Assembly: GCA_030272155.1 (NCBI GenBank)
Contig: CP126191.1
Coordinates: forward strand, 9,942,501 to 10,006,500
Length of the DNA stretch: 64,000 bases
Direction: 5' to 3'
Source: Tetradesmus obliquus
Taxonomy: Eukaryota; Chlorophyta; Chlorophyceae; Sphaeropleales; Scenedesmaceae
Part shown: in pieces, positions 14,161 through 63,952 of the stretch
Layout of the letters: each line of letters starts with the position of its first letter
Position numbering within the stretch: position 1 is the first letter of the stretch
Program-made: the position numbers and the translations under genes
The notes under the pieces: model-generated
What the model was told of the DNA's origin: nothing
Databases searched by the model: none
The model's input: the letters and a program-made list of their open reading frames with translations, nothing else

Positions 14161-17100
14161 TTAAGGATTTGGACTGGGCCAGATCATCGCAGGCGGAGTG
14201 CGCTTAGGATTGCCGCCAGTCTTGCGCACCTGCAGCTGCAGATTTGAAGTCCTGAGAGAGTTTGACCGGTCCAGGTCAAACTTCGGGCTGCTGACAGCTG
14301 TCACCACAAACGAACAACTGCCTGACTGCTGCCTCCGCGCAGTGAAGACGGCCTGTCCTTTGCCTGCTGTGTTCTTTGTCTGCGCGATAGGTGACCAAGC
14401 CTCAGGGCGCGATCGCCAGGTGCCGCTGACAGTAGCACCCCTGACAGGCTTGCCTGTATCTGAGGCAACCACCAGCACCTTTGCGGTGCAGGAGCAGGCC
14501 TTGGTTGTCTTTGCGCAGCTTTTCCCCATGATGATGGATGTGACGCGCATTGTGGGCTTGGGCTGGTTGCTTGTCGTTGGGCCTTGGGTGTTTGGCTCGG
14601 GGCTGGGGTTTGGGTTGGGCTGGTCAGGATTGGAAAAGGTGTTTGGCAGCTCTGGCGATGGAGAGGGCTGGACCGGAGCAGGCGGCACAGGTTCAAACAC
14701 AGCAACACAGGTAGTGATGCTCTCTGGCTCAAGGAAGACGTTCGCGCCAGTTGCAGGGGAGCCCAGGACGCCGTCAGACAAATCATAGCACTGCCAGCGA
14801 GCCAGGATCATGCCGTCCGGAGCATCTTCGCTTGCCAGATTGTATGCGCCAGGCAGCACGGTCGTGCTGCACTTGCCATTGTCTCCGGGCGTTGCAACCG
14901 CCACGCCATCGATACCGATTTGCGATGATGGCTCGCGGATGCAGTTGTCGCGCGCGCTGTTGGCCCACAGCGCAGGCGAGAACAGCGGCCGGTAGCCGTC
15001 TGGAAACTGGCTCAGCAGTGCAAGCTGCGCTGGCGTGTCATCACCAACTGGCTGCTGATCAGGACTCGGGCTTGGACTTGTCTCCACATTTTGCTGCTGC
15101 TGTTGCTGCTCGGAGCTGCCGTCAGGGCTAAGGCTAGGGCTAGGGCTGGGCTGCTGCTCCTGCTGCGCCACTCCTGCTGCGGGGAAGCTAGCACTTAGCG
15201 CAAAGCCTCCTCTGCTGCCATAGCTACTGTAGCTGGACCCATCTTTGGGGTCTCCGCTGCCTGCCCCAGAGACAGCAACATAGTAAGTGCCGGCAGCTGG
15301 CAGCGCAACTGCTGCTGCTGCAATGCCGAGACCGTTGTCTGTGTCAACGCCTGCAGGGTTGATTGGTGCGCCGACAGCGCTGCCAGCTGCATCATACACA
15401 ACGAGCTGCACATCTAGATCTGAGAATGCCCACTCCTCCCAGGCGCGCTGCACTGCCACAGTGAACGTTGCAGTGCCAGCATTGGCCTCAAACGACCACA
15501 CGTTTGGCGTGCCAGGAGTCACGACTAGGCCCGTTGTGTTGATTGTTGCTGTGGCGCCGTTGACGGTTGGGGTGGTTGGTGTGGCTGTGGAGATGCTGCT
15601 GCCAGCCGGCTGCTTGAGCAGCGGCAGGAAGTTTGTGATGACCTGTACATCATCCTGCGGGTTGTTCGAGCCGAGGTACGCACCGTTGTCCCAAGTTGAG
15701 AGCTGTTTATAGTAGCCTGCAGATGATCAATGTGAACAGCAGCAGCAGAAGTGTCATTATTGGGGCACAACAGCAGCGACAACAGCAGGATGAGGCGCTC
15801 ATGCAGTTGAGATGCAAGCAGTCACCTACATACCTGCTGAACTTGCAAGCTCTGGCATGCACTGCAGTAAATAGCTGCTGCTGTTGCTGAAGCCACACGC
15901 AAACTGCAGCTGCAGGGAAGCAGAAGACAGGCAAGCCAGCTGGCGGCCGTAGCAACTCACCAACGCCCATGATGCTTGCCCAGTCGCCCTGGCCTGAAAA
16001 GTAGGCGCTGTTTGCATCGCCATCATGCATCAAGCCCAGCGTGTGCCCAGCCTCTGCACTCACAACAACGCAGCAGCCAGCACACCCTATGAGACAGCAG
16101 TCAAGAGGTAGCAGTCTGTCGAGCAGAAGTTATCAGTCAGCTAGGGCTGCGCCTGCACAAGCGATGCGAGTATTAGGACCACTTGCAGGACGCTGTTTGT
16201 GTACACAGCCACTTTAGTGTGTACATGACAGGTAAGCCAGCGCAAGCGCTCCTCACCATGTGACACAGGCTCTGCCATGAACTTACATCAATAAAGTTAC
16301 TAGGTAAATTCACAGTGCGAACCCAGCATGCAAACTCACCATGTGACACAGCCTCTGCCATGAACTTGGGGCAGTCACGATGCAAAGTCACACTGAAACA
16401 TTCACAATGAAATCCACCATACAAGCTCACCATGTGACACAGCCTCTGCCATGAACTTGGGGCAGTCACGATGCAAAGTCACACTGAAAGAATCACATTG
16501 AAAATCCACCATGCAAACTCACCATGTGACACAGCCTCTGCCATGAACTTGGGGTAATCAGGGCCCAGGTTTTCAGGGAAGATGAAGGCTGTGGCGTATC
16601 TGGGGTCTCCAAAGATGCCCAGGTACGCAATGCCGCCAGCACCACCGCCATACCCTGTATGTAAGCATGAGGCGATACGGCAATGACGAAAGGCGCGTGC
16701 ACAACAGCAAAGGTCAGCGGCAGCCTTGGTTTGCAGCATGCGGTAGGTTTGAAAGAAATGCAAGTGCTGGCTTGCAGTGGTAAGCCAGCTGTTGTTGTGC
16801 CGCACGTATGGTTTGGAGCTGCAAATATTCATGCTGGTGGCTGTTGAGCACAGCAGCGGCCTGCACCAAATTCCAGGGGACTCACATCCGCCGTCTCCGC
16901 CAATGCGCACGTGGACAGCATTGACCATTGTTGCTGGCCTGATGGTAGTGATGTCGACATCAAAGATGCTGCAGCAGCAAAGCACAGGGGAACAAGGTTG
17001 AACAGCAAGGTTTTGACTAGAAAAATGCAAACAAGGCAATAGCGGCACGAGGCGAAAGCAGGCCTAGCACGGTACGCGCTCGACAATGCGTACGGCACCA

Positions 17101-61500: not shown

Positions 61501-63952
61501 GTTTCAGACGTGTATGAGCATGTAAGTTGCATTATATCCGGTCACTGAGCTCAAACCCGAGGCGTGTGCTGTCGTAGGTTGGTGTATGCCTGGGACTGCG
61601 GCTGTCTGCCTGTCCTGTGCCTCCATGTGAGCTGTTATGCCAACGCTGGCGCTGCAGCCGCACGTATATGTGAGCGCAACTGCAGGTAATGAATTCAACT
61701 GCTTGCCTGTCATGTGCTGCTGTGCTGCCTGTTGTTGAGTGCAGGCGCTGCAGCCGCAGCTGTTTGTGAGCGTGCCACGACTGTGGAACCGCATCTACGA
61801 TCGCGTCATGGCCACCATGCGCGAGGCCAACCCGGTGAAGCGGCGCCTGTTTGAGCGCGCCTTTGCCTACAAGCGCGCAGCGCTGGAGGCAGGTGTGCGC
61901 TGATGAAGCCATTTGCAGCAGTTGCCAGCACACAGGATTTTATCATGCCGGCTTCAGTGGCAGCCATTGTGATGATTATGTCTTCTGCATCCGACGTTCG
62001 CGTACAGCGATCAAAGCTCCGTCTCCCATGCACATGTTGCTAGTGTTGGGCACAGCAGATGCAGTCGCAGCTGCACACCAACTCCTGCATCAGCCCTCAT
62101 GTACATCAGCTGCTACTCCTGTGCCTTGAATTGTGCACTGCTGCGAATCATGCTGCGCATGGCCGTGTGCTTTTTGAATGTCAGGCGACATGAGCGGAGG
62201 GCGCTGGGGCCCCTTCTGGGACCGGCTGGTGTTCAGCAAGGTGCGGGAGCGCCTGGGCGGGCGCGTCAAGTACATGACCACAGGTGAGCCCGATGCACAA
62301 CAAAGTACAATATTTCTTAGATATACCAGCTGGGGTTGGAACAGCTGTACAGCTTCACCTAGCACCTGTAATTGCGCAGTCGAGGCAGCAGCTTCCAGCC
62401 GATTGCCTGCCAGCTATGTGCCCGCTAGCATGTGCATGACTGCTGTTCCACCAGTGCCTGCGCCTGCCTGATCTCTAACCACCACAATCATATCTTACCC
62501 GTGCTCCTGCAGGCGCCAGCCCCATCAGCGCAGAGGTGATGATGTTCCTGCGCGTGTGCTTTGGCTGCCACGTGCTGGAGGGCTACGGCATGACAGAGAC
62601 ATCCTGCACCATCACTATCACACGCATGGATGACCCCACAATCGGCCACGTGGGCGCGCCGCTGTCCTGCTGCGAGGTCAAGCTTGTGGACATCCCTGAG
62701 ATGCACTACATGACCACGGACCAGCCGCACCCGCGGTGCGTTACGTTTGACCGTCCAGTCAAACTGGTCAAACTGGTCAAATCAGTCAAACTTGGTGTTT
62801 GATGGTTGCGTGCTGACATGGTGCAGCCTGGATTTTTTGTGTGGGTGTTTGCTCTGCCGTTTGCAGCTGGCTTTAGCAGAGTATGTGCAGCTGCTGTGAC
62901 GTTGCTGTTCACAAACGCAAGTCGGCAAGACTGCTGTTGTGTCTCACTGCTGCTGCAGGGGCGAGGTGTGTGTGCGCGGGCCCACAGTGTTCCAGGGCTA
63001 CTACAAGGCCCCGGAGCAGACAGCAGAGGTGATGGACGCTGACGGCTGGTTCCACACAGGCGATGTGGGCGCGTGGCTGCCCGGGGGCCGGCTGCGCATC
63101 ATCGACAGGTGCGCTGTGTGTGAGATAGTTGAGGAATTGTGTGGCTTGCAGTGAGTTGTGTAGCTTGCAGCTGCAGAGGCCCGTGTCGTTGTTGACAGCA
63201 AAATCATGCATGCCCTTGCTCTACTGGCGGCCGGCGGCGCATCATCGACAGGTGCGTTGTGTGTGCGCTGGCTGAGGATTCCAGTGGCTTGCAGCTATGT
63301 AGCTTGCTGCTGCAGATGCACGTGGATGGTGGAGTAATCACAACACACGGCTGCTCCTGGTTGTTCAGGCACTGACTGTGCTGTGCGGGCGTCTGTTGCT
63401 GCTGCACCTGCCACTCGCTTGCAGGAAGAAGAACATCTTCAAGCTGGCGCAGGGCGAGTACATCGCGCCGGAGAAGATAGAGAATGTGTACACCAGGTGC
63501 GCAGCTCACCCGCTGCTCCTTGTCGCAAAATACAATGTTTCAAGGTTTCCGTGAAACATCCGAAGGTTTGCATTGCGGGGGTGTGCAGGTGAAACGAGCA
63601 TGCTGCCAGGTTTGCCGGGTTGATTGCTTTATTGGCCTCATGCTATGAGATGCAGAGCGCATCCTCTTGTGAATTGGCACATCTGCTACTGGGCACGCCT
63701 GTATGAGAACGTGTTATTGCTTGCTTTTGGTGGCTGCCATGCCCTCACAGTGGCTATAATTAGGCCTAATCAATCTGGGCTTCTGACGAGATGTGGCTTT
63801 GCTGCCATGCGTCCTGCAAACTCTGCTGCAGGAGCCCGCTGGTGCTGCAGGCGTTTGTGTATGGTGACAGCCTGAAGGCGCAGCTGGTGGCAGTGGTGGT
63901 GCCAGACCCTGAGACGCTGCTGCCATGGGCCAAGGAGCGCAACCTGCCGCAG
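58517..63952 (+). CDS. LACS: Long-chain acyl-CoA synthetase (3' end beyond window)
   Basis: The enzyme activates free fatty acids to acyl-CoA using ATP, through an acyl-AMP intermediate. Twelve exons lie in the window: 58517-58728, 58802-58907, 59325-59399, 59745-60026, 60384-60564, 61005-61210, 61745-61892, 62185-62283, 62513-62735, 62959-63108, 63425-63496, 63832-63952. They encode 625 aa and end at a donor, so about 40-80 aa are missing for a normal eukaryotic LACS. The AMP-binding P-loop [11 protein letters not shown] (276-286) spans an intron. Other landmarks are [17 protein letters not shown] (460-466), D-G-W-F-H-T-G-D (539-546) and [15 protein letters not shown]. No clear transit or signal peptide is seen at the N-terminus. 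Extra exon-end copies lie at 60844, about 61472 and 63251. The subclass (peroxisomal, ER or chloroplast) cannot be fixed. Confidence 0.96.
59711..59741 (+). repeat. CTG tract abutting the acyl-CoA synthetase exon 4 acceptor
   Basis: About ten CTG triplets run to within three bases of the AG at 59743-59744. CAG-rich triplets (about 59440-59478) lie near the donor of the same intron. Confidence 0.95.

Follow-up and report, generated by a model that had tools for sequence, protein, structure and literature searches.

Tandem copies of exon ends concentrate at exon borders in the green alga Tetradesmus obliquus

Copies of exon ends in the window

The window analysed here, a 64-kb stretch of contig 1 of the Tetradesmus obliquus genome (104.66 Mb, 17 contigs), contains seven genes in which exon ends recur as tandem copies in the adjoining introns. 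The genes encode a protease, CHLI, an LCAT-like protein, RIO2, a second secreted protein, NSA2 and an acyl-CoA synthetase. The copies, noted in a preliminary description of this DNA, were seen in all seven genes by self-alignment of the window after masking of microsatellites and short-period repeats. Gene models were produced with a home-made gene finder and then curated by eye. Those for NSA2, CHLI, RIO2 and the acyl-CoA synthetase (an AMP-binding synthetase) were confirmed against PDB sequences, with best E-values of 2e-114, 1e-133, 1.5e-104 and 4e-49, respectively. The LCAT-like model is backed in part by Pfam (residues 91–270 of 350). The protease has a single Pfam match, slightly below the cut-off, and the second secreted protein has no Pfam match; the exons of both are gene-finder predictions. 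The closest named relatives of NSA2 are those of two sphaeroplealean green algae, Monoraphidium (90% identity) and Raphidocelis (88%), with the Chlamydomonas protein equally close at 88%.

Tandem copies cross 22 of the 80 internal exon ends in the seven genes. One of these, RIO2 34824, is better explained by a minisatellite with a 19-bp unit, leaving 21 ends; about ten copies of this unit lie in RIO2 intron 2 (34583–34774). Two more ends with copies, NSA2 54280 and LCAT 29065, fall outside the 80. Strict re-alignment recovered 33 copies at 19 of the 21 ends, and weaker copies found only by self-alignment bring the total near the 'about forty' first estimated. The copied unit spans the splice site, comprising an exon part and an intron part. 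Each copy lies adjacent to its parent in the same orientation, mostly at a spacing of 83–166 bp, and NSA2 intron 4 holds copies of both flanking exon ends. A shuffle control (one shuffle per exon end) gave no matches, compared with 46 of 294 real ends. The features are as follows.

16252–16560, minus strand: protease exon 4 end (5′ splice site, exon ends at 16523) and three intron copies, unit 83–92 bp
23425–23790, plus strand: CHLI exon 2 start (23725) and two upstream copies, spacing ~136–139 bp
23842–24178, plus strand: CHLI exon 2 end (23880) and copies at 23997–24052 and 24128–24178, the latter with GC rather than GT
24422–24578, plus strand: CHLI exon 3 end (24457) and copy at 24536–24578; both of two codon differences synonymous
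24971–25332, plus strand: CHLI exon 4 end (25028) and copies at 25116–25180 and 25279–25332
26128–26312, plus strand: CHLI exon 6 end (26180) and copy at 26255–26312; 8 synonymous and 1 non-synonymous codon differences
26406–26679, plus strand: CHLI exon 7 start (26592) and upstream copy at 26406–26526
28490–29084, minus strand: end (29065) of the last modelled LCAT-like exon, a less certain exon, and copies
29145–29409, minus strand: LCAT-like exon 6 start (29158) and copy at 29367–29409, not recovered by strict re-alignment
29504–29806, minus strand: LCAT-like exon 5 end (29766) and copies at 29604–29653 and 29504–29543
35809–35997, plus strand: RIO2 exon 5 end (35875) and copy at 35924–35997; 7 synonymous and 2 non-synonymous codon differences
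36182–36464, plus strand: RIO2 exon 6 end (36220) and copies at 36310–36419 (weak) and 36426–36464
36568–37053, plus strand: RIO2 exon 7 start (36986) and copies at 36568–36667 and 36838–36937
37154–37461, plus strand: RIO2 exon 7 end (37203) and copies at 37273–37327 and 37409–37461
45990–46231, plus strand: second secreted-protein gene exon 2 start (46200) and two upstream copies
46295–46576, plus strand: second secreted-protein gene exon 2 end (46325) and copy at 46538–46576
54142–54326, minus strand: NSA2 exon 5 end (54280) and copy at 54142–54202
54428–54899, minus strand: NSA2 exon 5 start (54485) and three copies starting at 54628, 54762 and 54893
54964–55447, minus strand: NSA2 exon 4 end (55420) and three copies at offsets 109, 221 and 345, plus a degraded one
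56406–56859, minus strand: NSA2 exon 2 start (56446) and copies starting at 56546, 56645 and 56744, with a degraded one near 56850
60842–61064, plus strand: acyl-CoA synthetase exon 6 start (61005) and copy at 60842–60901
61192–61480, plus strand: acyl-CoA synthetase exon 6 end (61210) and short copy at 61454–61480, not recovered by strict re-alignment
63083–63324, plus strand: acyl-CoA synthetase exon 10 end (63108) and copy at 63226–63324
43636–43831, plus strand: 62-bp pair, 90% identical at offset 134, in a repeat-rich secreted-protein region; it lacks an exon model and is outside the counts

The preliminary description had placed the copies on the non-coding side. The partner alignment is intron-side at 22/22 window ends, although this is partly built into the rule, as the end of an exon is defined by whichever splice site is used. 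The further claim that copies keep the AG or GT was right for most: an exact GT/AG is present in 31/33 window copies (31/33 also when 2 bp of slack is allowed) and absent from 2/33.

In the LCAT-like pair at 29604–29806, a serine is encoded by AGT in the exon and TCC in the copy, three base changes for the same residue. CAG/CTG triplet runs are very numerous in the window (e.g. 23384–23475, 24266–24351 and 54494–54529), and some directly precede copied acceptor sites. Long proline-rich coding-like repeats lie at 3059–5310, 39997–42350 and 43937–44352; their assignment to secreted or wall proteins is a guess.

Concentration at exon borders

The window was compared with a genome sample that drew on all 17 contigs and comprised twenty stretches of 10 kb, each placed at a round coordinate. 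Nineteen were analysed, with L019 excluded as satellite; its arrays are satellite-like, with 279-bp and 345-bp units (L019 16–6039). The sample exon-end count leaves out L019 and alignments of at least 400 bp. Array and 45-bp-window counts leave out positions 1–6800 and 39.0–45.4 kb of the window, the start of L007 and L019 in part or whole, and the array count also leaves out the start of L003.

Copies concentrate at exon borders well beyond uniform placement. Of the 90 arrays, the number that cross a confident exon end is 60, or 62 once two arrays in the window that had been mislabelled as gene ends are included; 18 lie at a weakly predicted exon end, 6 are intron-only, 2 exon-only, 1 intergenic and 1 at a gene end. 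Window arrays comprise 23 at borders and none that are intron-only or intergenic; sample arrays include 6 intron-only (24 if those at weakly predicted exons are added) and 1 intergenic. A null model was needed because a ~120-bp unit in ~270-bp introns often crosses a border by chance, and because exon-internal duplications are purged. Units were placed uniformly, with a 2.7-fold correction for faster loss of the intron half, a figure obtained from copies found via the exon part at 46/294 ends versus 17/294 via the intron part. Given the border arrays found, this null predicts for the window ~18 arrays confined to introns and ~52 between genes; for the sample the corresponding numbers are 72 and 45.

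Scanning with 45-bp windows gave a nearby copy for 46/294 at exon ends, 475/8229 in introns, 29/1764 in exon interiors and 84/5805 in intergenic sequence. For intergenic windows at least 400 bp from any predicted border, the count was 11/3396. A survey for an exon-end excess had been proposed as the test that could refute the original claim; run on ~264 kb rather than the whole genome, it found the excess and did not refute it. Coding ends carried copies at 2/12 stop codons and 0/12 start codons, numbers too few to judge whether splicing is needed. The two ends of an intron showed no sign of linkage, with copies at both ends of 4 introns (~2.6 expected), at one end of 13 and at neither end of 23.

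Copies beyond the window

Copies cross 37/261 confident exon ends in the 19 arbitrarily placed stretches. Partner alignments are intron-side in 45/48 cases, and an exact GT/AG is present in 38/44 copies (41/44 within 2 bp). Copy density is uneven, dense in some stretches and near zero in others: L005, L006, L010 and L020 (4/20 stretches) gave zero alignments and L002 gave one. Most sampled stretches nevertheless show the effect. The original wording, 'most genes of a locus', was therefore an understatement, as the copies are not local.

A profile search for the chaperonin family PF00118 found overlapping matches to the same profile positions lying side by side. Two such places were read: three copies lie upstream of one exon start, two follow an exon end and one precedes the next exon start. 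The loci L022 and L023 were picked by protein-profile search, which favours copies with kept coding sense. A possible higher-order repeat was seen by eye at L022 101–531, where copies 3 and 2 are separated by a spacer much like the one that separates copy 1 from the exon, and the middle spacer is different.

Geometry and intron length

Spacings were mostly 91–145 bp, as first described (53/77 in window and sample together), and 69/77 were below 200 bp. The NSA2 exon 2 series is indeed regular, with a period of 99–100 bp. For the 40 nearest pairs with a spacing of up to 200 bp, the range was 92–197 bp and the median 129. In the 37 pairs whose exon part was clear, that part measured 22–88 bp and made up at most 0.61 of the unit in 37/37 (P = 5e-11 versus uniform breakpoints). 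The intron part was at least 43 bp in all 40 nearest pairs. Exon and intron part lengths were negatively correlated (Spearman −0.46, P = 0.004), with spacing nearly constant. Sorted by multiple of three, spacings fell 25:22:22, with no bias.

Introns with copies were longer than those without (P = 1.6e-4). The median was 272 bp for introns free of copies (n = 23), 469 bp for those with copies at one end (n = 13) and 686 bp for those with copies at both (n = 4). The preliminary description had proposed an ongoing duplication process that lengthens introns and fills them with decoy splice sites. Lengthening agrees with the longer introns and the concentration at exon ends; that the process is ongoing and that the decoy sites matter are conjectures. 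An NSA2 protein (P0001) is free of any copy. This protein is 99% identical and full-length, on a 1,680-nt contig that is presumably a transcript, because 1,680 nt is too short for the NSA2 gene with its introns.

Splice sites in the copies score close to those of their parents, with medians of 5.67 versus 6.45 and 5.83 versus 6.99. An internal AG|GT that would make copies translated alternative ends was searched for by eye in L022, CHLI and RIO2, and none was suitable. In NSA2, CHLI and RIO2 no new intron was found between copies: the models without copies align end to end, or nearly so, with PDB relatives, and P0001 represents the normal NSA2 product. The copies have the look of scars left by faulty DNA repair, not of functional elements.

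Divergence of the copies

Differences between exons and copies were counted by codon position at 44 ends. These remained after leaving out RIO2 34824, the 8/55 ends for which re-alignment gave no copy, and any end with five or fewer codons to compare. NSA2 54280 also stands outside these counts, as does CHLI 26180, dropped because of an indel. Exons and their nearest copies differed 20:26:111 across codon positions, with 103 synonymous and 46 non-synonymous codons. Position 3 held 71% of mismatches, versus 46% in simulations of a neutral copy beside a constrained exon (P = 9e-10). The window alone gave 6:11:36 (18 ends, P = 0.001). Exons and farther copies differed 26:18:41, which fits the neutral-copy simulation. 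The excess in nearest copies needs either exon silent sites that change about six times faster than the copy, or separation while both sequences coded.

Synonymous differences between exon and nearest copy average 0.16 per codon and fit one common divergence across the 44 nearest copies (P = 0.18). Under exponential ages, the proportion of simulations as even was 0.000 for nearest and 0.004 for single copies. Under uniform ages it was 0.02 and 0.12, respectively, and such ages are not firmly excluded. In-place duplication followed by drift is insufficient, because the differences between exon and nearest copy are mostly synonymous and fairly even, a point missed in the preliminary description. 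Such a pattern suggests that two diverged haplotypes meet at the exon borders. A synonymous excess caused by gene conversion between exon and copy was also considered and rejected by reasoning, since conversion would lower, not raise, the synonymous share.

Compared with one another, and taken together, survey-set copies drift like non-coding DNA, without coding constraint. Their mismatches fell 41:26:31 across codon positions in 400 codons (24 synonymous, 66 non-synonymous; position 3 versus one third, P = 0.75). In exon–copy pairs, intron halves showed 23% mean divergence; across 34 such pairs they were the more diverged and had 7.2 gaps per 100 bp versus 1.3 in the exon halves. Intron halves were alignable in many pairs and at chance level in some.

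Origin of the copies

We tentatively favour repair of DNA breaks as the source of the copies, the repair copying past the exon end from a diverged allele and being closed by end joining. We infer the repair route and the second haplotype from four features that the model would explain: the specificity for borders, the short exon part, the even silent divergence of the nearest copy and the diverged intron halves. A break would fall within ~90 bp of an exon end, and one broken end would copy the matching exon of a diverged sister haplotype. Copying would run beyond the border into intron that no longer matches, so that re-annealing would fail. End joining would then close the break, with the working exon end staying in place and the copy left inside the intron. 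The protein would be unchanged and the intron would grow, the copy later decaying as ordinary intron. Regular arrays could arise by later local duplication of such units.

A broader proposal, possible though doubtful, is that exon borders are duplication hotspots in a diploid or hybrid alga whose haplotypes are so strongly diverged that only exons still match. Repair starting from an exon would run out of homology at the border, leaving one allele's exon end in the intron. If true, intron growth would be a side effect of divergence between alleles, and introns would preserve former alleles as a kind of fossil record.

Several observations weigh against the break-repair account and the border counts that it draws on. 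Sample exons were predicted by a gene finder trained on the same sequence, and the window border count includes the RIO2 exon 3 minisatellite. The window total of zero intron-only arrays thus treats this minisatellite as a border array, and it has an intron-only pair (29245/29421) merged into the adjoining LCAT array. Evenness is borderline in the 28 single-copy ends (P = 0.056). The four versions in L022 place 25/27 copy–copy mismatches at the third position, which would need several haplotypes or rounds, and addition of L022 and L023 to the survey set changes the copy–copy count to 41:28:58. Exon-derived halves are 11% diverged between copies versus 24% for intron-derived halves (16 pairs), which pure drift does not predict; the contrast is biased by the finding of copies through their exon part, and more weight is given to the codon-position counts. 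Finally, two NSA2 exon 5 copies have intron halves 0–1% from the parent and an exon part 8–10% from it, and a second haplotype is unnecessary for these.

The main rival is an assembly artefact in which two or more haplotypes or strains were merged, setting the exon end and intron of one beside those of another. The mostly synonymous, fairly even differences between exon and nearest copy resemble those between two working alleles, copy–copy differences are nearly all at the third position in L022 and L023 (2/2 in the latter), and the spacing is about the length of a short read. We consider it unlikely, however, as the 46 non-synonymous codons beside 103 synonymous are more than expected of alleles of conserved proteins (e.g. 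His to Gln in NSA2), and a GT/AG is missing even within 2 bp in 2/33 window and 3/44 sample copies. Arrays of 3–4 copies with a regular period, the neutral drift of farther copies, and contigs of 3–11 Mb, 17 in number, which suggest long reads, also speak against it. Slightly less likely still is uniform tandem duplication across the genome, with exon-internal events purged and exon-end events visible for longer since the parent exon cannot change. It would explain the intron-side position and part of the synonymous excess, and it agrees with the 2.7-fold more frequent finding of copies via the exon part and with the copies at stop-codon ends. Even after correction, however, intron-only and intergenic arrays are far too few, nearest copies carry too many synonymous differences, and units with more than 61% exon are missing. 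Combined with slow decay of the parent half, uniform duplication is rejected as a full explanation by the array counts set against those expected.

That some copies are in use, as alternative exon ends or through selection for splicing or repair, appears improbable. Amino-acid sense is kept in some diverged pairs (8:1 at CHLI exon 6 and 7:2 at RIO2 exon 5, as well as L022 and L023), splice-site scores lie little below those of the parents, and exon-derived halves diverge less than intron-derived ones. Survey-set copies nevertheless differ from one another without codon bias, the near-identical NSA2 protein contains none of them, and spacings lack a multiple-of-three bias, so that use of the copied sites would usually shift the frame. 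An RNA route, in which partly spliced transcripts or spliceosomal intermediates were reverse transcribed and recombined at exon borders, would yield border specificity. It is very improbable given that, at 5′ and 3′ splice sites alike, the copies carry intron on their outer side and form a tandem with the parent; we know of no RNA intermediate with such a structure.

Relation to known systems

Through exon-end copying, introns already present would become longer and accumulate splice-like sites by a concrete and countable route, one that differs both from transposons and from the birth of introns. If the copies record other alleles, haplotype divergence would be linked to gene structure. There is also a practical consequence, in that gene finders can call copies as exons in this genome, as happened here for NSA2. 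The literature searched, mostly without subscription papers, held no report of genome-wide, border-specific exon-end copies and only single precedents and general intron-gain models; this absence is weak evidence. Internal gene duplication is reportedly ubiquitous, as the title of a 2009 paper by Gao and Lynch has it. Introners, which spread by self-copying into many genes, create introns; the present copies likewise represent many similar changes to introns within one genome, but each matches its own neighbouring exon.

Polyubiquitin genes with dual-specific splice sites (PMC10809524) also have splice sites in tandem repeats, although their repeats are coding units spliced in varying number. 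Short tandem duplication by end joining at breaks is established in other organisms, and the staggered-break route (PMC8355091) is a repair process of the kind considered here, though its accessible text makes no tie to exon borders. Small tandem duplications that carry splice sites alter gene structure in Drosophila (PMC2891723), whereas here introns already present grow by units that lie across a border already in place, and no new intron was found. The potato RdRp gene (PMC4974935) contains a tandem duplication across an intron–exon boundary. That single case made a new intron, whereas the copies in T. obliquus stay within the old intron, occur at both kinds of border and affect 14–28% of the ends examined.

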